Positions 138 through 18,398 of a DNA stretch of 18,906 nucleotides are shown here, one piece after another. The position numbers and the translations under genes are program-made. This stretch comes from Desulfarculus sp. (lineage in GTDB: Bacteria; Desulfobacterota; Desulfarculia; Desulfarculales; Desulfarculaceae). The notes beneath the pieces were generated by a model. The model made no database searches. It worked only from the letters and a program-made list of their open reading frames with translations, and was not told where the DNA came from. Every line of letters starts with the position of its first letter. Within the stretch, counting starts at the first letter, position 1. The stretch is taken from positions 1-18,906 of the forward strand of contig JAIWNN010000022.1 in assembly GCA_020216805.1 (NCBI GenBank), written 5' to 3'.

Positions 138-2051
138 TTACTCCTGGCGGGTTCGAGGCCATTGCCAGAGGGCAAAGGCGATGACGACCACGCATGCCGT
201 CGCTCCCAGCAGTCCCAGCCCGGGCTGGGGCATGATGGCCGTCACGGCCGCGCCCAGCATGGCCAGGCGCAGCGCCGGATTCAGGCGGCGTCCGGCCCAG
301 CCTTCCAGGGCGGTGGCCATCAGCACCACCGCCAGCAGGGACAGACCCAGGATGGCCAGGATGGGCAGCGCCGGGGTGTCCACGATGAGCAGGGCCGGGT
401 GGTAGACGTAGATGAAGGGGATCACGAAACCCGAGAAGCCCAGCCGGAAGGCGGTGAAGCCGGTGCGGGTGGGATTGGACTTGGCGATGCCCGCCCCGGC
501 GTAGGCCGCGATGGCCACCGGCGGGGTGATGAAAGAGATGATGGCGAAGTAGAAGACGAACATGTTGGCCGCCAGGGGTTGCACCCCCGCGGAGACCAGG
601 GCCGGGGCTCCCACCGTGGCCGCGATGACGTAGGCGGCGGTGGAGGGCAGGCCCATGCCCAGCACGATGCAGGCCGTCATCACCATCAACAACATGAGGA
701 ACAAGTTGTTGCCCGAGAGATCGAAGACGATCTGGGTGAACTTGACCCCGATCCCGGTCATGCTCACGATGCCGATCACCAAGCCGGCCGAGGCGCAGGC
801 GGCCGCCACCGGCGCGGTGGTGGCCGCCGCCTTGACGAAGGCGTCCTTGATCTCGCGCAGGGGTAAACGGCGCTCCAGGATCAGGGTCTTGACGATGCCC
901 ACCACCAGCAGCACCGCGATGGCGAAGATGGCGGCGTAATTGGCCGACAGCTCCACGATTAGGAGAAGATAGACAAGCACCGCGATGGGCACCAGGTGGT
1001 AGTAGCCGGCTTTGAAGACCTCCTTGAAGCGGGGCAGGTCGGCGCGCCTTTCGCCCTTCAGGCCCTGGCTGCCGGCCTGGAGATAGACCGCCAGGCCCAG
1101 GCTGAGGTAGTAGAGGATGCCTGGCAGCAGACCGGCCAGCACGATGTTGGCGTAGGGGGTGCCGGTCATGTCGGCCATGACGAAGGCGGCCGCGCCCATC
1201 ACCGGGGGCAGGATCTGCCCACCGGTGGAGGCCACCGCCTCCACCGCGCCGGCGTAGTGAGGCTGGTAGCCCACCCGCTTCATCAGGGGAATGGTGAAGG
1301 TGCCGGTGGTGACCACGTTGGCCACCGCGCTGCCGTTGATGGAGCCCATCATGGCCGAGGAGAGCACCGCCGCCTCGGCCGGTCCGCCGCGCATGCGGCC
1401 GGTCAGGGCGTAGGCGATGTCGATGAAGAACTTGCCGGCCCCGAACTGGTCCAACAGCTCGCCGAAGATGATATAGAGGCTGACGAAGGAGACCGAGGCT
1501 CCGATGGGGGTGCCGAACAGGCCCTCCAGGGTCCAGGCCAGGTAGCTGGTGATGTACTCCAGGTCATAGCCCTTGTGGGCCACCATCTCGGGCATGTAGG
1601 GGCCCAACAGGGCGTAGGCCAGGAAGGCCCCGGCGATGATGGTCAGCGGCAGGCCCACCGCCTGCTGGCTGGTCAAAAGCACCAGGGCGATGAGCGCCAG
1701 GCCGGCCAACGCGTCCAGCTCGCCGATGCCCATGATCCCGCGCTCCAGGATGGACTGGGGATCGGAGGTGATAAGGTAGTAGCCACCCACCACCGCCACC
1801 AACAATAGGATCAGGACATAGACTCCACCGCTCAACCATCCGCGCCGGGTCAGGTGGTCGCGGCATTTATAGAGATACCAGACCAGCATGATCGCGAAGA
1901 CGTGGACAATGCGTTGCTGGAGGACGTTGAGGTCGGTGTCCACGCCCAGGTAGAGGTGGAACAGGGTCAGCGCGGTCGAGACCAGGAAGATCAGGGTGGT
2001 CAGGAAGCGGTTGATCCTGGCGGGGCTCGCGGTGCTGGGACGATCTGACAT
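138..2051 (-). CDS. TRAP transporter permease, fused DctQM type (TAXI subfamily)
   Basis: This is the inner-membrane component of a tripartite ATP-independent periplasmic transporter, driven by an ion gradient, that takes a ligand from the TAXI binding protein encoded just upstream. The 637-residue protein is hydrophobic throughout. The first ~130 residues form a DctQ-like small membrane domain with about four helices, and the rest is a DctM-like domain with many helices. DctM signatures seen are EAVASTGGQILPPVMGAAAF, GSINGSAVANVV and GMGLPSTAAYVIAATVGAP. The fused arrangement and the length are usual for TAXI-type systems. The start ATG has AGGAG about 10 bp upstream. It is the last gene of the operon, separated from the binding-protein gene by a 114-bp spacer that holds a long hairpin. 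The substrate cannot be read from the sequence; organic acids are usual for the class. Confidence 0.93.
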   Translation of the reverse strand: MSDRPSTASPARINRFLTTLIFLVSTALTLFHLYLGVDTDLNVLQQRIVHVFAIMLVWYLYKCRDHLTRRGWLSGGVYVLILLLVAVVGGYYLITSDPQSILERGIMGIGELDALAGLALIALVLLTSQQAVGLPLTIIAGAFLAYALLGPYMPEMVAHKGYDLEYITSYLAWTLEGLFGTPIGASVSFVSLYIIFGELLDQFGAGKFFIDIAYALTGRMRGGPAEAAVLSSAMMGSINGSAVANVVTTGTFTIPLMKRVGYQPHYAGAVEAVASTGGQILPPVMGAAAFVMADMTGTPYANIVLAGLLPGILYYLSLGLAVYLQAGSQGLKGERRADLPRFKEVFKAGYYHLVPIAVLVYLLLIVELSANYAAIFAIAVLLVVGIVKTLILERRLPLREIKDAFVKAAATTAPVAAACASAGLVIGIVSMTGIGVKFTQIVFDLSGNNLFLMLLMVMTACIVLGMGLPSTAAYVIAATVGAPALVSAGVQPLAANMFVFYFAIISFITPPVAIAAYAGAGIAKSNPTRTGFTAFRLGFSGFVIPFIYVYHPALLIVDTPALPILAILGLSLLAVVLMATALEGWAGRRLNPALRLAMLGAAVTAIMPQPGLGLLGATACVVVIAFALWQWPRTRQE

Positions 2052-2165: not shown

Positions 2166-3158
2166 CTATTTCTTGTACTCGGGCGGATAAAGCTTGGGAT
2201 CGATCTTCAGGCCCTTCTCCTCGAAGAACTTGATGGCCCCCGGGTGCAGGGGGGTGCCGATCTCGTTGAGAGCCGTCTCTAACTGAACCTGCTGCTTGAC
2301 CGCCGCGTGCACGCCGTTCCACTCGTCCTGGTGCTCCCAGATGGCCTTCATGATGCGGTAGACATCATCGGTGGTGAAGTCGGCCTTGGTGGTGGTGTAC
2401 ATGATGATGCGGCTGATGGGCACCTGGACATCGACTTCCACGCCCTTATAGGTCCCGGCCGGTATGGTGTGCATGGTGTAGAAGGGGAACCGCTGGTAGA
2501 AGGCGGGGTCGTTCAGGGGGATCATCTTGACGGTCATGGAGTTGGTCAGATCCAGCAGGGCCGCCGACTTGATGGGGTGGGTGCAGATGAAGCCGTCGAT
2601 GCGGCCGTCCTTCAGGGCCTGGACCGCCTCGGTCTCGGGGATGAACTGGGGCTTGAGGTCCTTGTAGGTCAGGCCGTAGAAGCCAAGGATCATGCGGGCG
2701 GCCATCTCTCCGCCGCTGCCGGCCGGGCCTACGCCCACGGTCTTGCCCTTGAAGTCGGCGATGGACTTCACCGGGCTGTCGGCGGCCACGAAGACCTGCA
2801 CATAAGAGTAGATGGTGGAGAACATGGCCCGGATGTTGTCCATCTTGCGCTTGGCGAAGTCGCCCTCGCCGTTGTAGGCCATGGCCGCGATCTCCGATTG
2901 GGAGATGCCCATCCACATCTTGCCGGTGCTCAAGTTGCGCAGGTTCTCCACCGAGGCGGCGGTGGCCTCGCCGGTGGCGGCGAAGCCGGGCACGTACTTG
3001 GTGATCACCTGGCCCATGGCCACGCCCATGGGATAGAGCGCCCCGGCGGTGCCGGCGGTGCCGATCGAAAAACGCTTGGTGTCGGCCGCGCCGGCCGCGC
3101 CGACGCCCAGAGCGGCCGTCAACATTATCGCCGCGACCATCGCGAGATATTTTCGCAT
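2166..3158 (-). CDS. TAXI-family TRAP transporter substrate-binding protein
   Basis: This is the periplasmic ligand-binding subunit that delivers substrate to the fused TRAP permease encoded next. The protein has 330 residues. A signal peptide (MRK, hydrophobic core, AAGAA) probably ends near residue 25. The mature start, RFSIGTAGTAGALYPMG, is the classic TAXI beginning. It is followed by ATAASVENLRNL, VGVGPAGSGGEMAAR and an ending in PEYKK. I start it at 3158 because AGGAGG (3171-3166) lies 7 bp upstream and the signal peptide then begins correctly. A longer frame from 3227 would add 23 residues that do not resemble an export signal. The gene follows the EPSP-synthase-like gene by 85 bp in the same operon. 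TAXI proteins are related to glutamate/glutamine-binding folds, but the ligand here is unknown. Confidence 0.93.
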   Translation of the reverse strand: MRKYLAMVAAIMLTAALGVGAAGAADTKRFSIGTAGTAGALYPMGVAMGQVITKYVPGFAATGEATAASVENLRNLSTGKMWMGISQSEIAAMAYNGEGDFAKRKMDNIRAMFSTIYSYVQVFVAADSPVKSIADFKGKTVGVGPAGSGGEMAARMILGFYGLTYKDLKPQFIPETEAVQALKDGRIDGFICTHPIKSAALLDLTNSMTVKMIPLNDPAFYQRFPFYTMHTIPAGTYKGVEVDVQVPISRIIMYTTTKADFTTDDVYRIMKAIWEHQDEWNGVHAAVKQQVQLETALNEIGTPLHPGAIKFFEEKGLKIDPKLYPPEYKK

Positions 3159-3196
3159 GACCATTCCTCCTGGCCTGGTGTTGGTTTTCAACGCCC

Positions 3197-3243: not shown

Positions 3244-4533
3244 TTAGGCTCGCTCCACCTGCTGGATGTCCGCCCCCAGGGCCGTGAAGACCTGGTGGAA
3301 ATTGGGAAAGGACACCGCCACGTACTCCGCGTCGCCGATGACGGTCTCGCCCTCGGCCATCATGGCCGCCACCGCGCTGGCCATCACGATGCGGTGGTCG
3401 TGGCGGCCGTCGATGCGGGCGCCCTTGAGATTGGATTGGTAGATGGTCAGGGTGTCGGGGGTCTCCTCGAAGCGCCCCCCCATCTTGGTCAGTTCCTCCA
3501 TGATCGACCGAGTGCGGTCGGTCTCCTTGAGCCGGCTGGCGGCGATGTTTCTGAGCACCGTCTTGCCCTTGGCCTTGCAACCCAGGACGGCCAGGGCCGG
3601 CACCGCGTCCGGCGTGCCGGAGCAGTCGATCTCGATGCCGTTGAGTTCGTTGCCGCCCTCGACGGTCACGGTGCGGCCGCCGTCGGCGAAGGTCACGTTG
3701 CCGCCCATGGCCTTGATGATGTGAGGATAGGCTTTCTCGCCAGCGAAGTCATCGGGGTCCATGCCCACGAAGGTGACCTTGGAGTCGGTGATGGCCGCCG
3801 CCACCATGGGATAGCCGGAGCTGCCCCAGTCCGACGGCACCACCGCCTCGCAGGCGGTGTATTTCTGGCCGCCGGGGATGGTGAACTCCTCGTAGTCGCG
3901 GTGACGGCAGGTGGCCCCGAAAAGCCGCATCCACCCTATGGTCATGTTGACGTAGGGCCGCTCCATCAGGTTGTCCTCCAGCACCGTCACGCCGTCGGGG
4001 GTCAGGGCCCCGGCGATGAGCAGGGGGCTGAGCCACTGGGAGTTCACCCCCGGCAGTTGGGTGCGTCCGCCCTTCATGGGGCCCTTGATGACCAGGGGGG
4101 CCACCCCGGCGTTGCGGGTGGAGAAGACCGAGGCCCCCAGGTCGTTCAAAGCGTCGATCAGGGGCTGGGCCGGACGGCGGCAGATCTGGTAGTCGCCGCT
4201 GATCACCGAACAGCCGTCGATCAGGGCGGCGATGGCGGTCAGCAGATAGTAGCCGGTGCCGGAATTGCCGGCGTCCAGCACACAGCCCGGCACCTGGGGC
4301 TGATTGCCCACGCCCTCGAAGACCCATTGCTCGGGGTTGGATGTGTCGATTTTGGCCCCCAGGGCCCGCATCATGCCCACGATCGAGAAGCTGTCCACCC
4401 CGGGCAGGGGATTGGTGATGCGCGAGACGCCCTCGGCCAGGCCGCCCAGGACGATGGCCCGGGCGCTGGCGGATTTGTTGCCCGGAATCCGGGTGGTTCC
4501 GTTGAGACTGGATGGCTTGACGATGAAATGCAC
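3244..4533 (-). CDS. EPSP-synthase-fold enolpyruvyl transferase homologue, divergent active site
   Basis: The 429-residue protein spans the full EPSP synthase (3-phosphoshikimate 1-carboxyvinyltransferase, AroA) family length. Family motifs are PGNKSASAR (17-25; K20, S21 and R25 correspond to E. coli K22, S23 and R27), LDAGNSGTG (86-94), RRP (119-121; R124 equivalent), NSQW (164-167), TPDAV, LKETDR and DHR. Several catalytic or ligand positions differ when aligned by eye to E. coli AroA: R100 is Y96, S169 is N164, S197 is Glu, N336 is Ala and K411 is Val (in YVAVSFPNF). These residues bind the shikimate-3-phosphate phosphate group or PEP. A classical AroA activity is therefore doubtful, and I give no gene symbol. 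The start is GTG with GGAG 8 bp upstream. It lies 28 bp after the IclR gene and before a TRAP-TAXI transporter, which suggests a role tied to the imported compound. Automatic annotation would call it aroA. Confidence 0.85.
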   Translation of the reverse strand: MHFIVKPSSLNGTTRIPGNKSASARAIVLGGLAEGVSRITNPLPGVDSFSIVGMMRALGAKIDTSNPEQWVFEGVGNQPQVPGCVLDAGNSGTGYYLLTAIAALIDGCSVISGDYQICRRPAQPLIDALNDLGASVFSTRNAGVAPLVIKGPMKGGRTQLPGVNSQWLSPLLIAGALTPDGVTVLEDNLMERPYVNMTIGWMRLFGATCRHRDYEEFTIPGGQKYTACEAVVPSDWGSSGYPMVAAAITDSKVTFVGMDPDDFAGEKAYPHIIKAMGGNVTFADGGRTVTVEGGNELNGIEIDCSGTPDAVPALAVLGCKAKGKTVLRNIAASRLKETDRTRSIMEELTKMGGRFEETPDTLTIYQSNLKGARIDGRHDHRIVMASAVAAMMAEGETVIGDAEYVAVSFPNFHQVFTALGADIQQVERA

Positions 4534-5818: not shown

Positions 5819-6682
5819 ATGTCCCGCCATTTCGACCAGTTCAAAGGCACCGACCGCTATATCGTCTCCCCCGCCCTGCGCGACGTGGTGAACGTGGCCA
5901 TCAGCCTGGGCCGGCCCCTATTGGTCAAGGGCGAACCCGGCACCGGTAAGACCCTCCTGGCCCACAACATCGCCCGGGGCCTGAACAAAGAGCTGTTGAT
6001 CTGGAACATCAAGTCCACCACCAAGGCCAAGGATGGACTCTATGTCTATGACACCGTCCAGCGCCTCAACGACAGCCGTTTCGGCACCGGCGACGTCAGC
6101 GACATCAAGCGCTACATCCACCTGGGCCAGTTGGGCCGCGCCTTCACCGCCCCGGAGCAGGTGGTGCTGTTGATCGACGAGGTGGACAAGGCCGATCTGG
6201 AGTTCCCCAATGACCTGCTCAATGAGCTCGACGAGATGAGCTTTTACATCCCCGAGACGGACGAGACCATCGAGGCTCGCCAGCGGCCGATCGTGGTCAT
6301 CACCTCCAACTCGGAAAAGGAGCTGCCCGACGCCTTCCTGCGCCGCTGTGTCTTCCACTACATCGAATTCCCGGATCAATCCCTGATGCAGGACATCGTG
6401 CACGTGCACTTTCCCAACCTGGAGAAGCGGTTGCTCAAGGAGGTCCTGACCCGCTTTTATTGGCTGCGCGAGGTGGAGGGATTCCGCAAAAAACCATCCA
6501 CCAGCGAGTTGCTGGACTGGATCGCGGCCCTGATCGCCGGGGGCATCGAGCCCGAGAAGGTGGCCAAGGAACTGCCCTTCGCTGGCGCCTTGATCAAGAA
6601 AGAGCAGGACGCAGAGTTGCTGCAAGCGGTGCTGGAGCGCGGCGGCAAGGGCTCCACCCTGGGCCTGAGGAGTCGCTATTAG
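5819..6682 (+). CDS. MoxR-family AAA+ ATPase
   Basis: This is a cytoplasmic AAA+ ATPase of the MoxR class. Such proteins work with VWA-domain partners as chaperones that mature or insert cofactors into enzyme complexes, for example CoxD with CoxE. The 287 residues include Walker A GEPGTGKT (38-45), Walker B VVLLIDE (115-121), sensor-1 ITSN (161-164) and arginine-finger-like residues in DAFLRR (171-176). The stretch KSTTKAKDGLYVYDTVQRL (65-83) is typical of the subfamily found beside CoxE-like VWA proteins. The start ATG has GGAG 5 bp upstream. It is the first gene of a three-gene plus-strand operon, with the chemoreceptor gene 36 bp downstream and its probable VWA partner after that. The client complex is not encoded in this window. 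Confidence 0.93.
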   Translation: MSRHFDQFKGTDRYIVSPALRDVVNVAISLGRPLLVKGEPGTGKTLLAHNIARGLNKELLIWNIKSTTKAKDGLYVYDTVQRLNDSRFGTGDVSDIKRYIHLGQLGRAFTAPEQVVLLIDEVDKADLEFPNDLLNELDEMSFYIPETDETIEARQRPIVVITSNSEKELPDAFLRRCVFHYIEFPDQSLMQDIVHVHFPNLEKRLLKEVLTRFYWLREVEGFRKKPSTSELLDWIAALIAGGIEPEKVAKELPFAGALIKKEQDAELLQAVLERGGKGSTLGLRSRY

Positions 6683-6718
6683 GTGCTAGGTTGTCCGCCT
6701 TTAACTAGCGAGGATACT

Positions 6719-8425
6719 ATGGCAAACCAGAAGACCACCCGGAAGTCCCTGAGCCTGAAGACCCAGATCATGTTTTTTCCGATCCTGTTTCTGGTGGGCT
6801 ACGGGGTTTTCGTCTTGGCCAGCTACGTGTTCGACGCCTCGCTGCGCGCCAACGTGGTGTTGCCCAGCATGGAGCGCCAGATCCTGGAGGACCATAAGGT
6901 CGCCCTCAAGGCTCTGGTCGAAGCCGAGGCCATCGCCTTGGGCGAGGTGGTGAAGGGCTTGGCCAGCCGGGAGGAAAAGCTGGCCGCCGTGGTCAAACAG
7001 ACCGACCCCATCCGCTTTTTCGACGATGGCTCGGGGTACTTCTTCTCCTATGATCTGGCCGGCATCCGCATCAACGTGCCCACCAACAAGGCCGACAACG
7101 GCAAGAGCTTCATGGAGGCCAAGGACAAAAAGGGCATCGCCTTCGTGGCCGAGTTCGTCAAGGCGGCCAAGGCCGGCGGCGGTTTCGTGGAGTATTACTT
7201 CGACAAACCCGGCAAGGGAGTCCAGCCCAAGCTGAGCTATATCAAGACGGTGCCGGGAACCGACTTCCTGGTCGGCACCGGGGTCTACATCGACAACGTG
7301 CAGGAGGAAAGCGCCAATCTGTTTAAGCGGCTGGACGAGGCCGACCGCGGCATGATGGTCTACAAGATCCTGCTCTTCGGGGTGATCCTCCTGGTGGTTT
7401 TTGTCATCAGCTTCCTGGTCGCTCGCCGAGTGACCGGTTCGGCTCAACGGGTGATCGATGGCTTGACCGCGGCGGCCGGGCAGGTCTCCGCCGCCGCCAG
7501 CCACGTCTCCGCCAACAGCCACCACCTGGCCGAGGGCGCATCCAACCAGGCGTCGTCGCTGGAGGAGACATCCTCGGCCCTGGAGGAGCTGTCGGCCATG
7601 ACCCGCCAGAACGCCAACAACGCTGGCGAGGCCAACACCCTGGCGGTGGAGTCCGGCCGGGTGATGGAGCAGGCCGAGGGCAGCATGCGCGAGCTGACCA
7701 ACTCCATGGGCGAGATCAGCCGCTCCAGCGAGCAGATCAGCAAGATCATCAAGACGATCGATGAGATCGCCTTCCAGACCAACCTGCTGGCCCTCAATGC
7801 GGCGGTGGAGGCGGCCCGGGCGGGCGAGGCTGGGGCCGGCTTCGCGGTGGTGGCCGAGGAAGTCCGCAACCTGGCCATGCGGGCCGGAGAGGCGGCCAAG
7901 AACACCGCCGACCTGATCGAGGACACCGTGCGGCGGATCAAGGCTGGCGACGAGCTGGTGGGCCGCACCAACACCGCGTTCACGGATCTTGCCAATAATG
8001 CGCGTAAGGTCGCGGAATTGGTGGGCGAAATCGCGGCGGCCAGCTCGGAGCAGTCCCAAGGCATCGACCAGGTGAACCGGGCGGTGGCCGACATGGACAA
8101 GGTGGTGCAGCAAAACGCGGCCACGGCCGAGGAATCCGCCGCCTCCTCAGAGCAGATGAACGCCCAGGCCCAGCGCCTGCACCAGTTCGTGGGCGAGCTG
8201 GCGGCTCTGATGGGCGGTAGGGGGCGAAATCCAAGCACCGCCTCCTCCACCGCCGGCGCCAAGGCCGCCGCCAGCGGACTGAAGCGGCCCAGCGCCGGTC
8301 CGCGGCCGGTGCAGAGCGCCCAGACCCTGCTGGCCCACAAGCCGGCGGCCCCGGCCAAACCGGCCGGCGGCAAGACCCCGCAGCAGCTCATCCCCCTGGA
8401 TGAAGACGATTTCAAGGACTTCTAG
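6719..8425 (+). CDS. Methyl-accepting chemotaxis protein with single Cache-type sensor domain
   Basis: This inner-membrane chemoreceptor would signal to CheA/CheW. The 568 residues comprise a first membrane helix (~17-38), a periplasmic Cache domain (~40-205) with [19 protein letters not shown] and [14 protein letters not shown], a second helix (~214-235), a short linker and a long coiled-coil cytoplasmic domain. The hairpin tip [20 protein letters not shown] (from ~349) and [15 protein letters not shown] are diagnostic. The C-terminus is an Ala/Pro-rich linker ending in [12 protein letters not shown], an acidic tail I associate with deltaproteobacterial receptors. I start it at 6719 (AGGA 4 bp upstream); a GTG at 6683 would add 12 atypical residues. 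It lies between genes for a MoxR ATPase and a VWA protein, unusual company for a receptor. The Cache family commonly binds small carboxylates, but the ligand is unknown. Confidence 0.93.
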
Positions 8426-8454
8426 GACGGGCGTCCCCGGACAGGTGAGGCAAC

Positions 8455-9627
8455 GTGTTCCTGGATTTCTTCTACACCCTGCGCCAGCTCAAGGTGCCGG
8501 TTTCGGTCACCGAATGGATGACCCTGATGGACGCCTTGGGCCGGGGCCACGCCCAGTCCAGCCTGACCAGCTTTTATTATCTGGCGCGGGCCATCCTGAT
8601 CAAATCAGAAGCCTTCTACGACCAGTACGACCAGGCCTTCGCCCATGTCTTCCGCAACGCCACCCTGCCGGCCGATGTCCGCGACGAGATTCTGCAGTGG
8701 CTGGAGGACCCCATCAACCAACTCAAGCTACCCCCGGAGGAGTTGGAGAAGCTCAAGCGCTGGGACCTGGACCAGCTGCGCGAGGAGTTGGAAAAGCGCA
8801 TGCAGGAGCAGACCGAGCGCCACGACGGGGGCGGGCGCTGGATCGGCACCGGCGGCACCAGCCCTTTCGGACACTCCGGAGCCCATCCCGCCGGCATCCG
8901 CATCGGCGGCACCGGCGGCGGGGGCCACGCCATCCAGATCGCCTCAAAACGGCTGTTCCGCAACTACCGCACCGACGTGACCCTGGACGTGCGCCAGATC
9001 AAAGTCGCCTTGAAAAAGCTGCGTCAGTTCGCCAAGGAAGGCCCCGAGGACGAGCTGGACGTGGACGCCACCATCGACAAGACCTGCCGCGAGGCGGGGG
9101 AGATCGAGCTGGTCTTCACCCGGGCGCGCAAGAACAAGGTCAAGGTGCTATTGCTGATGGATTCCGGCGGGTCCATGAGCCCCTACGCCCGCCTGGTGGA
9201 CCGGCTGTTCTCGGCCGCCCACCAGATGAGCCATTTCCGCGACTTCAAGGCCTACTATTTTCACAACTGCATCTACCAGGACATCTACAAGGACATCTAC
9301 ACCAGCGAGGCCGAACCCACGGCCGGGCTGCTCAAGAACCTGGACGGCGACTACAAGGTGATCCTGGTGGGCGACGCCTACATGGCCCCATCGGAATTGT
9401 TCAGCGCCGGCGGGGCGATAGACTACTTCTATCACAACGACACCCCGGGCCTGGAGTGGCTGCGGCGCATCGCCGACCACTTCCGCTATTGCGTCTGGTT
9501 GAACCCGCTGCCCCAGCGGGCCTGGATCCATCCCACCATCCGCACCATCAGCCAAACCTTCCCCATGTTCCCGCTCACCCTGGACGGGGTGGAGGACGCG
9601 GTGAAGGCCTTGATGGTGAGACACTGA
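8455..9627 (+). CDS. VWA-domain protein, CoxE-like (MoxR partner)
   Basis: This is the probable partner of the MoxR ATPase encoded two genes upstream; MoxR/VWA pairs act together in complex maturation. The 390 residues have an N-terminal helical region (1-120), a glycine-rich linker (~125-158), a middle region with KRLFRNYRTDVTLDVRQIK, and a C-terminal VWA fold. The metal-ion-dependent adhesion site is present as LLLMDSGGSM (D236, S240), where the canonical DxSxS has Gly in the third position, as is common in CoxE-type proteins. A second acidic residue is in ILVGDAYM (D307). It ends with DGVEDAVKALMVRH. The start is GTG with GGTGAGG 4 bp upstream, 29 bp after the chemoreceptor gene. No signal peptide or membrane helix is visible, so it should be cytoplasmic. 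Confidence 0.9.
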   Translation: MFLDFFYTLRQLKVPVSVTEWMTLMDALGRGHAQSSLTSFYYLARAILIKSEAFYDQYDQAFAHVFRNATLPADVRDEILQWLEDPINQLKLPPEELEKLKRWDLDQLREELEKRMQEQTERHDGGGRWIGTGGTSPFGHSGAHPAGIRIGGTGGGGHAIQIASKRLFRNYRTDVTLDVRQIKVALKKLRQFAKEGPEDELDVDATIDKTCREAGEIELVFTRARKNKVKVLLLMDSGGSMSPYARLVDRLFSAAHQMSHFRDFKAYYFHNCIYQDIYKDIYTSEAEPTAGLLKNLDGDYKVILVGDAYMAPSELFSAGGAIDYFYHNDTPGLEWLRRIADHFRYCVWLNPLPQRAWIHPTIRTISQTFPMFPLTLDGVEDAVKALMVRH

Positions 9628-15113: not shown

Positions 15114-16340
15114 TTACATCGACTCTTCGTTGGTGGCCTGGACGGCGCGGTCGATTTCGGCCTGGAGTTGGGGGGGCAGGCCGGGGATGTCGACGCTGAG
15201 GAAGCCGCGCACGATGGTGGCGGTGGCCTCGTCCTCGGTCAGGCCGCGGCTTTGCAGGTAGAGGATCTCCTCCTGGGCGATCTTGCCCACGGCGGCCTCG
15301 TGGCTCATCTCCACCCCGTCGACGAAGCCGTCCAGCTGGGGCACGGCCAACATGGCTCCGCCGCCGAGGATCAGCCCACGGCATTCCAGGTGGGCCTTGA
15401 TGTCAGGGGCGTTGCCCACCAGGTGGCCGCGGGCCATGATCTTGCCGCCACCCGTGATGGCGCGGCTGACGATCTCGGCCCGGCAGTGGGGGTGGTTGAG
15501 GATGACCCGGCTGCCGGCGTCGATGTCGGTGATGGGGGTGCCGACCATGATGCTGTAGAAGCGGGCCACCGCCCCGGGGCCGGCCAGGGTGGCGGTGGGG
15601 TACATTTGCAGCGAGCGCACCGGCTTCATGCAGATGTAATTGCTCAAGAACAGGCCGTCCTCCTCGATGATGGCGGCGCTGCGGGGGCGCACCTTCATCT
15701 CCTCGGCCCAGTTGTGGATCATGGTGAAGGATAGCTTGGCGCCTTTCTTGACGTAGAACTCGCTGACCCCGGCGTGAACTCCGCTGCGCATGTGCTCGCT
15801 GGTGACGCAGCCGCTGATGATGTGCAGCTCGCTGCCCTCCTCGGCGATGATGATGTTGTGGACGTTCTGCTGGAGCTTGTCCTGGTCCATGTAGAGGCAG
15901 GCCTGGATCGGGAAGATGGTCTTGCTGCCGGGCAGGGCGCGGATGACGTAACCGTCGTGCAGGTCCAACTCCACCGAGGCGGTGTATTTATCGGCGTCCA
16001 CCGCCACCGCCTTCCAATAATAGTCCCAGATCCAGGGGTGATGCTCCAGGGCCTGGCGGATGGGCAGCACCTCCACCCCCTCCTGCTTGCTGGAGCAGTG
16101 CAGGACGGAGGTGTCCTTCATGATGTAGGTGCCGCCGCGCTCCTGGCTTTTGACGTCCACCCCGCCCAGGAGCAGACGGTCCAGGTCGGCCTGGGGCAGG
16201 GAGCAAAGGTCGGCCTCGGCCATGGGCGATTGGGGCGGGGCGGTCCGCTGGTACTGGGAGAGGTCGATGTCCTCGCCGATGGCCGCGGCCTTGGCCGCCG
16301 CCGCCAGGGCCTTTTCCCTCAGTTGTTCTCTAGGGTGCAT
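15114..16340 (-). CDS. sufB: SufB/SufD-family Fe-S cluster assembly scaffold
   Basis: This cytoplasmic scaffold, with SufC, would assemble iron-sulfur clusters. It has 408 residues with the SufBD beta-helix core. Near the C-terminus are C320 (HLECRGLIL), corresponding to E. coli SufB Cys405, and H347-E348 in MSHEAAVGKI. The glutamate matches SufB Glu434 and the histidine sits where SufD has its conserved His, so one protein combines both signatures. It is shorter than E. coli SufB (~495). I start it at ATG 16340, which has GAGGAG 8 bp upstream; a GTG at 16349 is less likely. The reading frame overlaps the end of sufC by 22 bp. No sufD, sufS or sufE is next to it, so this is the minimal two-gene form known from anaerobes and archaea (SmsCB-like). 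The symbol denotes family, not strict orthology. Confidence 0.9.
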   Translation of the reverse strand: MHPREQLREKALAAAAKAAAIGEDIDLSQYQRTAPPQSPMAEADLCSLPQADLDRLLLGGVDVKSQERGGTYIMKDTSVLHCSSKQEGVEVLPIRQALEHHPWIWDYYWKAVAVDADKYTASVELDLHDGYVIRALPGSKTIFPIQACLYMDQDKLQQNVHNIIIAEEGSELHIISGCVTSEHMRSGVHAGVSEFYVKKGAKLSFTMIHNWAEEMKVRPRSAAIIEEDGLFLSNYICMKPVRSLQMYPTATLAGPGAVARFYSIMVGTPITDIDAGSRVILNHPHCRAEIVSRAITGGGKIMARGHLVGNAPDIKAHLECRGLILGGGAMLAVPQLDGFVDGVEMSHEAAVGKIAQEEILYLQSRGLTEDEATATIVRGFLSVDIPGLPPQLQAEIDRAVQATNEESM

Positions 16341-17092
16341 CGCACGCACTCCTCGTAGCCGTACTGCCCCACGCAGTGCAGGATCTCGCGGGGGTTGTTG
16401 CCGCAGGAGAGAACGCCGTCATAGAGCACGTAGCCCTTGTCGGCCTCCAGATAGTCCAGGATGTAGCCGGTGTGGGTGATGATCAGGCCCATCTTGGTGC
16501 GGGCCTTGCGGCTCTGGCGGATGGTCTTGGCCCCGGGGAGGGCCAGGTCGCCGTCCTTTTGCAGGAGTTCGGCGATGGTGTGGCCCACCAGGGCGATGTT
16601 CTCCATGTCCACTCCGCTCTCGGGCTCGTCGAAGAGCAGGAGGTCGGGCTTCTGGGCCATGAGCTGCAAAAGCTCGCTGCGTTTGATCTCGCCGCCGCTG
16701 AGGCCGGCGTTGACGTCTCGGTCCAGAAAGGCGGCGAAGTTGACCCGCTCGGCCATCTCCTCCAGATCCGGCTGGTCGCCGCCGGCGCAGAGGGAGATCA
16801 TCTGGCGGGTTTTGAGACCGTGGATGGTGGGCGGGCGTTGGAAGGACATGCCGATGCCCAGGCGGGCGCGCTCGTCGATGGAAGCGCGGGTGATGTCCAC
16901 GCCCTTGAAGGTGATCTTGCCACCCACCACTTTGTACTGGGGGTAGCCCATGATGGTCATGAGCAGAGAGGTTTTGCCCGAGCCGTTGGGCCCGAACAGG
17001 ATGTGGGTCTCGCCCGGAGGTATCTCCAGGTCGATGTGCTTCAATAGGAGCCGATCGCCCAGCTCCACCGCCAGGTCTTCCACCACCAACAT
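16319..17092 (-). CDS. sufC: SufC-like ABC ATPase for Fe-S cluster assembly
   Basis: This soluble ABC ATPase drives the SufB scaffold. The 257 residues include Walker A GPNGSGKT (34-41), a Q-loop in MSFQRPP, the signature LSGGE (~131-135) followed by IKRSELLQLMAQ, Walker B LLLFDEPESGVD (~151-162) and a switch His in LIITHTGYIL. ESGVD with IKR after the signature is characteristic of SufC rather than of transport ATPases. The protein carries an extra basic segment (GAKTIRQSRKARTKMG) and a cysteine-bearing tail ending EECVRCTLENN, absent from E. coli SufC as I recall it. AGAGGA lies about 5 bp upstream of the ATG. It is the first gene of the operon and overlaps sufB, indicating translational coupling. 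It lacks the transmembrane partner expected for a transporter. Confidence 0.92.
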   Translation of the reverse strand: MLVVEDLAVELGDRLLLKHIDLEIPPGETHILFGPNGSGKTSLLMTIMGYPQYKVVGGKITFKGVDITRASIDERARLGIGMSFQRPPTIHGLKTRQMISLCAGGDQPDLEEMAERVNFAAFLDRDVNAGLSGGEIKRSELLQLMAQKPDLLLFDEPESGVDMENIALVGHTIAELLQKDGDLALPGAKTIRQSRKARTKMGLIITHTGYILDYLEADKGYVLYDGVLSCGNNPREILHCVGQYGYEECVRCTLENN

Positions 17093-17187: not shown

Positions 17188-17291
17188 GTTGTGGGCGTAG
17201 CCTCTGCCCGGCCCGGGTCGGGACTGGTAAGATTGGGACAGCGCGCCTGGTGCGCGCCAAGGATGTCCGACCGGGCATTGGGGCGCTAACT

Positions 17292-18398
17292 ATGCGTAAG
17301 ACAATATTCTTTTTTCTAGTCATCCTTTGGGCGTCCGGAGTCGGCCAGGCCTGGGCGGAGCCGCCCGACCAGCGCCGCACGCTGGTGGTGGGCACCACCT
17401 TGCTGGAACCGTTCGTCATGAAAAACCGGGATGGGGTTTACCGGGGGCTGGCGCTGGACCTCTGGGCGGCGGTGGCCCAGGATCTGGGTCTGGACTACAA
17501 GTTGGTGGAGCTGGACCTGGCCGACCTGCTGAACGCGGTCAAGACCGGAGGGGTGGACGTGGCGGTGGGGCCGATCACGGTCACCAGCGCGCGGGAGAAA
17601 GAGATGGACTTCTCCCATCCCTACTTCCACACCGGCCTGACCCTGGCGGTGCGGAACCATCTGGTGCAGGGCTGGCGCGAAACCTTCAAGCACCTTTTCA
17701 GCAGTCGGCCGATGCTGGTGCTCTTGGCGGTGCTGGTGGGGTTGGTGCTGATGGGGGCCCTGGTCTGGCTGGCCGAGCGCCGGGCCAACCGCCAGCAGTT
17801 CGGGGACGGGATGCGGGGCGTCGGGCATTCGCTGTGGTGGGCGGCCCAGACGCTGTCGTCGGTGGGTTATGGTGACAAGACGCCCATCACCCTGCCGGGA
17901 CGGGTGCTGGCCTTTGTCTGGATGATGATCTCCCTGGTGCTGGTGAGCCTGTTCACGGCGGTGATCACCACCGCCCTGACCGTGAACCACCTCAACCAGG
18001 TGGTGCGCGGTATCCAGGACCTGGTGGATGTGCGGGTGGGCACCGTGGCAGCCAGCAGCAGCGAGACCTTCCTGGCCAAGCACCGGGTGGACTTCGCCCG
18101 CTATCCCGGACCCCGGGACGGCCTGAAAGCTTTGAACCGTGGCGACATCGACGCTTTTGTCTTCGACGCCCCGATCCTGCAATACATCATCAAACACGAG
18201 ATGACCGACGGGATTCGAGTGATCGGCAAGACCTTCGATCCCCAGGACTACGCCTTCGCCCTGCCCAACCAGAGCCCCTGGCGCAAGGCGATCAACACCG
18301 CCCTGCTGCGGGCCATTCATGGCGAGCCATGGCGGGACGCAATTTACCTATATCTCGGCGACGACGCGGTACCGCAGGCGCCGATGGCCGAGCCATAG
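17292..18398 (+). CDS. GluR0-like ligand-gated potassium channel
   Basis: The architecture matches prokaryotic ionotropic glutamate receptors: a periplasmic binding domain (SBP family 3) interrupted by a two-helix pore. The 368 residues comprise a signal peptide cut after AWA (~22), lobe 1 (23-~138), helix 1 (~140-160, MLVLLAVLVGLVLMGALVWL), a pore loop with the K+ selectivity filter SVGYGD (190-195) in LSSVGYGDKTP, helix 2 (~203-230), and then the rest of the binding fold to the end. Ligand-pocket residues typical of amino-acid binders are T/S-x-x-R in TVTSAREKEMDFSHPYF (R101) and a late acidic residue (D292 in AFVFDAP). Length is close to Synechocystis GluR0 (~400). I start it at ATG 17292, where the signal peptide begins; a GTG at 17250 is less likely. 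It stands alone, divergent from sufCB. Ligand and gating are inferred. Confidence 0.88.
   Translation: MRKTIFFFLVILWASGVGQAWAEPPDQRRTLVVGTTLLEPFVMKNRDGVYRGLALDLWAAVAQDLGLDYKLVELDLADLLNAVKTGGVDVAVGPITVTSAREKEMDFSHPYFHTGLTLAVRNHLVQGWRETFKHLFSSRPMLVLLAVLVGLVLMGALVWLAERRANRQQFGDGMRGVGHSLWWAAQTLSSVGYGDKTPITLPGRVLAFVWMMISLVLVSLFTAVITTALTVNHLNQVVRGIQDLVDVRVGTVAASSSETFLAKHRVDFARYPGPRDGLKALNRGDIDAFVFDAPILQYIIKHEMTDGIRVIGKTFDPQDYAFALPNQSPWRKAINTALLRAIHGEPWRDAIYLYLGDDAVPQAPMAEP

Follow-up and report, generated by a model that had tools for sequence, protein, structure and literature searches.

An EPSP synthase-like family encoded next to regulator and importer genes in many anaerobes

EPSP synthases of class I and II (AroA), the enzymes that glyphosate blocks, are the closest described relatives of the protein family considered here, termed family A. 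Family A shares with them the fold, the PEP-site and catalytic residues and a score above the aroA profile cut-off; the member studied here is about 30% identical to E. coli AroA. It differs in the replacement of the anchors R100 and S197 (E. coli numbering), in the substitutions S169N and F172W, and in its position in importer/IclR operons rather than with aro genes. Family A also occurs in genomes in which no aroC and no convincing aroK were found.

MurA, the UDP-GlcNAc enolpyruvyl transferase, has the same superfamily fold and donor. The family A protein scores only 86 bits against the murA profile (cut-off 392.7), and its host has a murA of its own. In NikO-type enzymes of antibiotic pathways, an EPSPS-fold enolpyruvyl transferase has moved to another hydroxyl acceptor. 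To our knowledge, these enzymes are encoded in biosynthetic clusters without an IclR regulator or importer, a description that sets them apart from family A, and we know of only a few acceptors for the EPSPS/MurA fold. A bryophyte MurA reported to make EPSP (PMC11588093) indicates that acceptors can shift on this fold. Enolpyruvyl transferases of the EPSPS fold are a known kind of enzyme; a literature search restricted to open-licence PMC papers found no description of the family with its importer operon.

An EPSP synthase paralogue in a TAXI transporter operon

The window (the whole 18,906-nucleotide stretch of Desulfarculus sp. DNA that was analysed) encodes a 429-residue family A protein together with a regulator and an importer:

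138..2051, minus strand: fused TAXI-TRAP permease, 637 aa (TIGR02123, 611 bits, cut-off 321)
2166..3161, minus strand: TAXI-TRAP solute-binding protein (TIGR02122, 264 bits, cut-off 84)
3244..4533, minus strand: family A EPSP synthase paralogue, 429 aa, GTG start codon at 4533
3961..3963, minus strand: codon of Glu191, aligned with E. coli S197 (S3P-phosphate anchor, role after PMC12256929)
4042..4044, minus strand: codon of Asn164, aligned with E. coli S169
4246..4248, minus strand: codon of Tyr96, aligned with E. coli R100 (S3P-phosphate anchor, role after PMC12256929)
4562..5383, minus strand: IclR-type regulator, with 28 bp between it and the downstream enzyme gene (Pfam IclR_C 80.7 bits, HTH_IclR 47.9 bits)

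All of these genes are co-directional, with the IclR gene upstream of the enzyme gene and the TAXI binding protein and permease, which both exceed their NCBIfam cut-offs, downstream. An earlier note on this DNA had named an IclR regulator and a TAXI transporter as the flanking genes, and the Pfam and NCBIfam matches bear this out. The enzyme has the EPSPS fold (Pfam EPSP_synthase, 325 bits) and passes the curated NCBIfam aroA model (TIGR01356, 371 bits against a cut-off of 287.25). The closest fold neighbours of the family A protein are S3P-bound EPSP synthases.

The window's genome (55% complete) contains three EPSPS-family genes: murA on contig C32, the family A gene, and a canonical aroA on contig C104 that adjoins a gene read as DAHP synthase and a PF00425 gene. 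A search for a second, canonical aroA, proposed in the earlier note, was thus positive. By coordinates, two relatives (G008 and G014) carry the canonical aroA in one stretch with aroE, aroK, aroC, CM-PDT and a PF00425 gene. Among four genomes of the window's family, family A copies are 78–91% identical and canonical copies 63–89%, with family A the more conserved in five of six genome pairs.

Elsewhere in the window, positions 17250–18398 (plus strand) encode a type 3 solute-binding domain split by an ion-channel domain with an SVGYGD-type filter, an arrangement that presumably resembles prokaryotic glutamate-receptor channels. A MoxR-type AAA ATPase and a VWA_CoxE protein are encoded at 5819–9627 (plus strand) with a chemotaxis-receptor-like ORF between them. 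At 15114–17092 (minus strand), a SufBD-core protein adjoins an ABC-ATPase-like ORF, forming a minimal SufB/SufC-like pair.

Family A residues and the sister clade

We aligned 227 of 231 family A proteins, sampled as the best 120 of 3434 and the best 120 of 971 matches to two family members; P0001 (wrong frame) and P0006, P0149 and P0200 (outside 380–480 aa) were left out. P0006 is a 580-aa homologue that joins EPSP synthase to a hemerythrin domain (Pfam accession PF01814), perhaps through an assembly or start-site artefact. In a tree of 49 rows with a MurA outgroup, family A is monophyletic (support 100/99), forms a sister pair with a group that we call clade B (98/98), and groups as part of that pair with class I (93/78). 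Record titles place members in Desulfarculaceae, Syntrophaceae, other deltaproteobacterial MAGs, Spirochaetales, Negativicutes, Halanaerobiales, other Bacillota, Atribacteria and a Thermoproteota archaeon. Among the matches listed, family A is annotated as 3-phosphoshikimate 1-carboxyvinyltransferase wherever a source name is given. Within the window's phylum (394 genomes, comprising the window's own and others at least 85% complete), 17 genomes including the window's own have a match at E ≤ 1e-148; the next matches follow after a gap, at about 40% identity.

Residues were read from a MAFFT alignment against E. coli AroA and compared with 43 canonical rows from the loci examined (16 class I-like and 27 class II-like). 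The five letters given in the earlier note are correct: the window enzyme has Asn at S169, Glu at S197, Ala at N336, Tyr at R100 and Val at K411. Three of these positions are informative, as canonical rows have Arg at 100 (43/43), Ser at 169 (43/43) and Ser (31) or Thr (12) at 197. Canonical rows vary at the other two, so N336A and K411V carry no information. Position 336 is His in 15 and Arg in one of the class I-like rows and Glu in all 27 class II-like rows; position 411 is Lys in 15 class I-like rows with one gap, and Ile (15), Val (10) or Thr (2) in class II-like rows.

R100 had also been placed in the PEP site. In tobacco EPSPS, the backbone NH of Ser179 holds the S3P phosphate together with Lys358, Arg105 and Ser206 (PMC12256929); in our own mapping these residues correspond, in that order, to E. 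coli S170, K340, R100 and S197. Because tobacco Arg105 anchors the S3P phosphate, we assign R100 to the S3P-phosphate site and not to the PEP site. Judged by alignment, two S3P-phosphate side chains, R100 and S197, are thus lost in family A.

Across the 227 best-ranked homologues, position 100 is Tyr in 213, Phe in 11, Arg in two and Cys in one (Tyr or Phe in 224), position 197 is Glu in all, and position 169 is Asn in 217 (otherwise Ile, Thr, Val or Leu). Trp172 and Trp243 are each present in 220. The near-fixation of Tyr100, Asn169 and Glu197 indicates that the three changes exceed chance; it holds within the family A sample and not for all EPSP synthases, since the rows are the best-ranked matches to two members. 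The PEP-site and catalytic set K22, R124, D313, E341, R344, H385 and R386 is retained, as are S23, R27, Q171, Y200 and K340 of the acceptor half-site. K22 is kept in 225 of 227 rows, R27 in 226 and R124 in 216 (Lys in ten, Asn in one), and Q171, Y200, D313, K340, E341, R344, H385 and R386 are each found in all 227.

Clade B consists of six proteins (L117–L121 and L083), five of them from genomes with GTDB family code f36 and the sixth from a Spirochaetales genome, and is only about 37–41% identical to family A. Like family A, it has Glu197 (six of six), no Arg100 (Asn in five, Tyr in one) and an aromatic residue at 243 (Trp or Phe). It keeps Ser/Thr169 and Tyr172, so that Asn169 and Trp172 separate family A from clade B. 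Genomic context also differs. In all five f36 loci (L130–L134), the gene adjoining clade B carries a shikimate-dehydrogenase domain (by coordinates), and in two of them (L133 by Pfam scan, L134 by its letters) the clade B gene has an aroDE fusion on one side and aroC on the other; L083 (locus L135) lies outside any such operon. Clade B is the sole AroA match in each of the five f36 genomes and is very probably a working EPSP synthase.

Because clade B mostly sits in shikimate operons, loss of R100 and S197 is by itself no proof of a new substrate, and we dropped the argument from residues alone. The S3P-phosphate anchors R100 and S197, taken as a defining feature of AroA, are missing from family A; since clade B also lacks them, the feature may not define the EPSPS family.

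Shikimate genes and importers in carrier genomes

We identified 15 genomes among 33 searched carriers that have no aroA match at E ≤ 1e-30 besides family A. Twelve of these (G063, G064, G066, G070, G073, G074, G075, G081, G082, G085, G088 and G089) have no matches to canonical aroA, aroC, PF00425, PDT or shikimate dehydrogenase. Four of the twelve (G064, G081, G082 and G085) also have no PF01202 match. In the other eight, PF01202 matches are weak (about 21–25 bits, mostly just over the Pfam cut-off of 22.1) and span about 23–27 of 159 positions, or 2–133 in G088 and 2–107 in G089. Most full-length shikimate kinases score 74–164 bits, and we take the weak matches for other, probably P-loop, proteins. 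Archaeal shikimate kinase belongs to a different family, so the PF01202 test is uninformative for the archaeon G088. Seven of the twelve are 90–98% complete (G063 92, G066 93, G070 98, G073 95, G074 97, G075 98 and G081 90%), as matched to the same assembly by contig number and overlapping coordinates; these figures exclude G064, G082, G085, G088 and G089. A twin of G073, G410, shows two AroA-family matches, the second of which may be a start fragment on L072.

AroA would be expected to share its genome with a shikimate kinase and a chorismate synthase; family A also occurs where no aroC match and no convincing shikimate kinase match was found (12 of 33 genomes). Because the tested shikimate-pathway genes are absent, S3P is unlikely to be the substrate in these twelve. 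Absence of PF08501 alone is not decisive, since G080, with aroC and aroK, also misses it. The remaining three of the 15 keep some genes: aroC is present in G060 (an assembly identical to G005, 70% complete) and in G087, with family A as the only aroA match in each, and G067 has PF01202. Another carrier, G077, has aroC, aroK, PF00425 and PDT, with one clade B and one family A gene as its only candidates. In genomes like G077, G060 and G087, family A might still act as an EPSP synthase. We also considered enolpyruvylation of 3-hydroxybenzoate for menaquinone (the futalosine route) and rejected it, as the twelve genomes have no PF02621 (MqnA/MqnD) match above cut-off and one sub-threshold match (G088).

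The earlier note had called for a survey of gene neighbourhoods. We mapped 33 loci (the window, L036, L037 and L042–L071, leaving out L072 and L073, start fragment only) and found an importer gene beside the family A gene in 31 and an IclR gene directly upstream in 18 (17 by clustering, L036 by tblastn at 30%). The importers are TAXI (18 loci), SsuABC-type ABC (7), TctCBA (3) and Liv ABC (3), classes that rest on one Pfam-scanned representative per cluster, with LivH and LivM named from gene order and length. TAXI genes are divergent in L059, and the binding protein stands alone in L071. L052 has no importer beside the family A gene. L055 starts at a contig end, and its other fragment, L072, follows SsuABC genes. 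The conserved operon core contains no aro gene in the 33 loci, and Pfam scans of further neighbours revealed no additional enzyme common to most of them. That the transporter class changes as the enzyme stays constant suggests one ligand reached by several routes. UbiD and UPF0261 (Tm-1-like) clusters, named from the L043 copies, occur near the family A gene in L043, L049 and L064, which have different importers.

The glutamate TAXI system of Vibrio cholerae, VcGluP, belongs to the same binding-protein and permease families. In VcGluP, the side chains of Y45, Q93 and E125 coordinate the glutamate amino group, and Q93 is the main glutamate determinant (PMC11574862). We took PDB chain 8s4j as VcGluP on the basis of matching residue numbers and compared the 18 TAXI binding proteins linked to family A, omitting a 19th row (L046) that is not linked. 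S75 and Q93 are mostly kept, and Y45, H123, E125, D157 and M201 are replaced. Y45 is Leu in all 18, and E125 is Ser in 15, Gly in two and Gln in one. These two replacements are suggestive of a ligand that is probably not an amino acid bound in the VcGluP manner; retention of Q93 (16 of 18) counts against a non-amino acid ligand. We abandoned an attempt to read the ligand from transporter homology, because the PDB chains closest to the TAXI, Liv, Ssu and TctC binding proteins disagree on it.

Candidate functions and a link to chorismate mutase

We are confident that family A is not a housekeeping EPSP synthase. On balance, we favour a neofunctionalised enolpyruvyl transferase of the EPSP synthase fold that acts outside the shikimate pathway, and we hold it rather likely that it uses PEP with another acceptor. 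The IclR regulator would sense a small organic acid and the importer (here TAXI-TRAP) would carry it in. Using the K22, D313, E341 and arginine set of EPSPS, the enzyme would transfer the enolpyruvyl group of PEP to a hydroxyl of this probably imported compound. As two of the side chains that bind the S3P 3-phosphate are lost, the acceptor would probably be an unphosphorylated hydroxy-carboxylate. This explanation is supported by the separate aroA, the twelve genomes in which the tested shikimate genes were not found, importers of four classes with IclR upstream in 18 loci, the retained catalytic set, the changed Y45 and E125 of the linked TAXI proteins, and the chorismate mutase gene next to family A in six loci. 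Against it stand clade B in shikimate operons, passage of the aroA cut-off, aroC genomes without a canonical aroA, the weak PF01202 matches in eight of the twelve genomes, Q93 kept in 16 of 18 linked TAXI proteins, and L052 without an importer. The earlier note's conclusion thus holds for a non-housekeeping, transporter-tied enzyme (canonical aroA, 31 of 33 loci, 12 of 33 genomes), and its residue argument is weaker than stated. Of the new substrate or reaction that it proposed, we infer the substrate; a different reaction is neither shown nor needed, because PEP and catalytic residues are kept.

We consider it unlikely that family A performs no net enolpyruvyl transfer and instead runs the reverse reaction (imported enolpyruvyl ether plus phosphate to PEP), an elimination or an isomerisation. 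The EPSPS reaction is reversible, and an importer with one enzyme, a regulator and no further enzyme common to most loci resembles a short uptake pathway. This reading is countered by the retained PEP-site and general acid/base residues, and we know of no common environmental enolpyruvyl ether. Quite unlikely, in our view, is a second functional EPSP synthase isozyme on S3P, for example under another regulator or fed by imported shikimate. Such a role would agree with the TIGR01356 score, the S3P-bound fold neighbours, a Glu197-bearing sister clade mostly in shikimate operons, and the three aroC carriers (G077, G060 and G087) without a canonical class I or II aroA match. It is opposed by the 12 of 33 carriers that lack chorismate synthase, shikimate dehydrogenase and the chorismate-consuming enzymes tested for, and in which shikimate kinase matches are weak or missing, by an operon core without aro genes, and by the Asn169 and Trp172 that set family A apart from clade B. 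The conserved co-occurrence with several importer classes would also fit a protein that has lost catalysis and serves the transporter as a sensor or chaperone, but all 227 best-ranked rows have D313, E341, R344 and R386, and we regard this role as extremely improbable.

The favoured reading, a transferase with another acceptor, has practical consequences. The family is widespread (several bacterial phyla and an archaeon) and annotated as EPSP synthase wherever a source name is given, though 12 of 33 searched carriers lack the tested pathway genes; some of the anaerobes that carry it thus seem to be without a shikimate pathway. Models of metabolism and surveys of glyphosate sensitivity may be wrong for such carriers if they count family A as aroA. 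Ligand screening with the conserved importer and its binding protein would be a direct route to the acceptor.

In six loci (L044, L045, L046, L048, L055 and L057), the next gene on the same strand encodes a chorismate mutase of 93–121 aa; the L048 protein passes NCBIfam CM_P2 (75.8 bits, cut-off 69.55). Chorismate mutase acts on enolpyruvyl ethers. Read by eye against the active site of E. coli AroQ, the linked mutase retains the catalytic lysine and arginines and has Asn in place of one aspartate. PF01817 was found in six of the twelve shikimate-less genomes (G063, G064, G066, G070, G073 and G075) and in none of the other six. Among seven tested genomes without an AroA match, it is absent from six and present twice in G096. 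All five shikimate-less carriers known to belong to GTDB family code f10 have a chorismate mutase (G063, G066, G070, G073 and G075), and all three tested f10 genomes without an AroA match have none (G094, G218 and G191). The presence of chorismate mutase where no chorismate synthase was found points to a chorismate-like ether made by family A, in the f10 lineage only.

A doubtful extension is that, in some anaerobes that have no shikimate pathway, an imported unphosphorylated hydroaromatic acid and PEP would give a chorismate-like enolpyruvyl ether, which the adjacent mutase would convert to a prephenate-like keto acid. Equally doubtful, as part of the same proposal, is that prephenate-type metabolites would arise with no need for AroK, canonical AroA or AroC and might supply prephenate-dependent hydroxylases of the U32 family, whose relatives have genes nearby. 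With the mutase-linked version, another origin for prephenate-type compounds becomes testable. The U32 protein TrhP depends on prephenate (PMC6599085). Of the twelve shikimate-less genomes, the six with a chorismate mutase have PF01136 matches and the remaining six have none. In L156 and L157 a chorismate mutase gene adjoins a U32–radical-SAM module; in L158, the locus of L043, it adjoins a U32 gene. Two other loci, L159 (from G094, which has no AroA match) and L160, have the module and no chorismate mutase, and PF01136 without chorismate mutase is found in three of seven additional genomes that lack an AroA match. The U32 protein of L048 scores 18.2 bits against TrhP (cut-off 534), and that of L043 matches no family. 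With these weak matches and mutase-free modules, we rejected the U32 link as a general explanation and keep it only within the proposal above. Recurrent U32 genes (L043, L045, L046, L048, L156, L157, L159 and L160) lie mostly beside a B12–radical-SAM gene of the BchE type and sometimes beside chorismate mutase.
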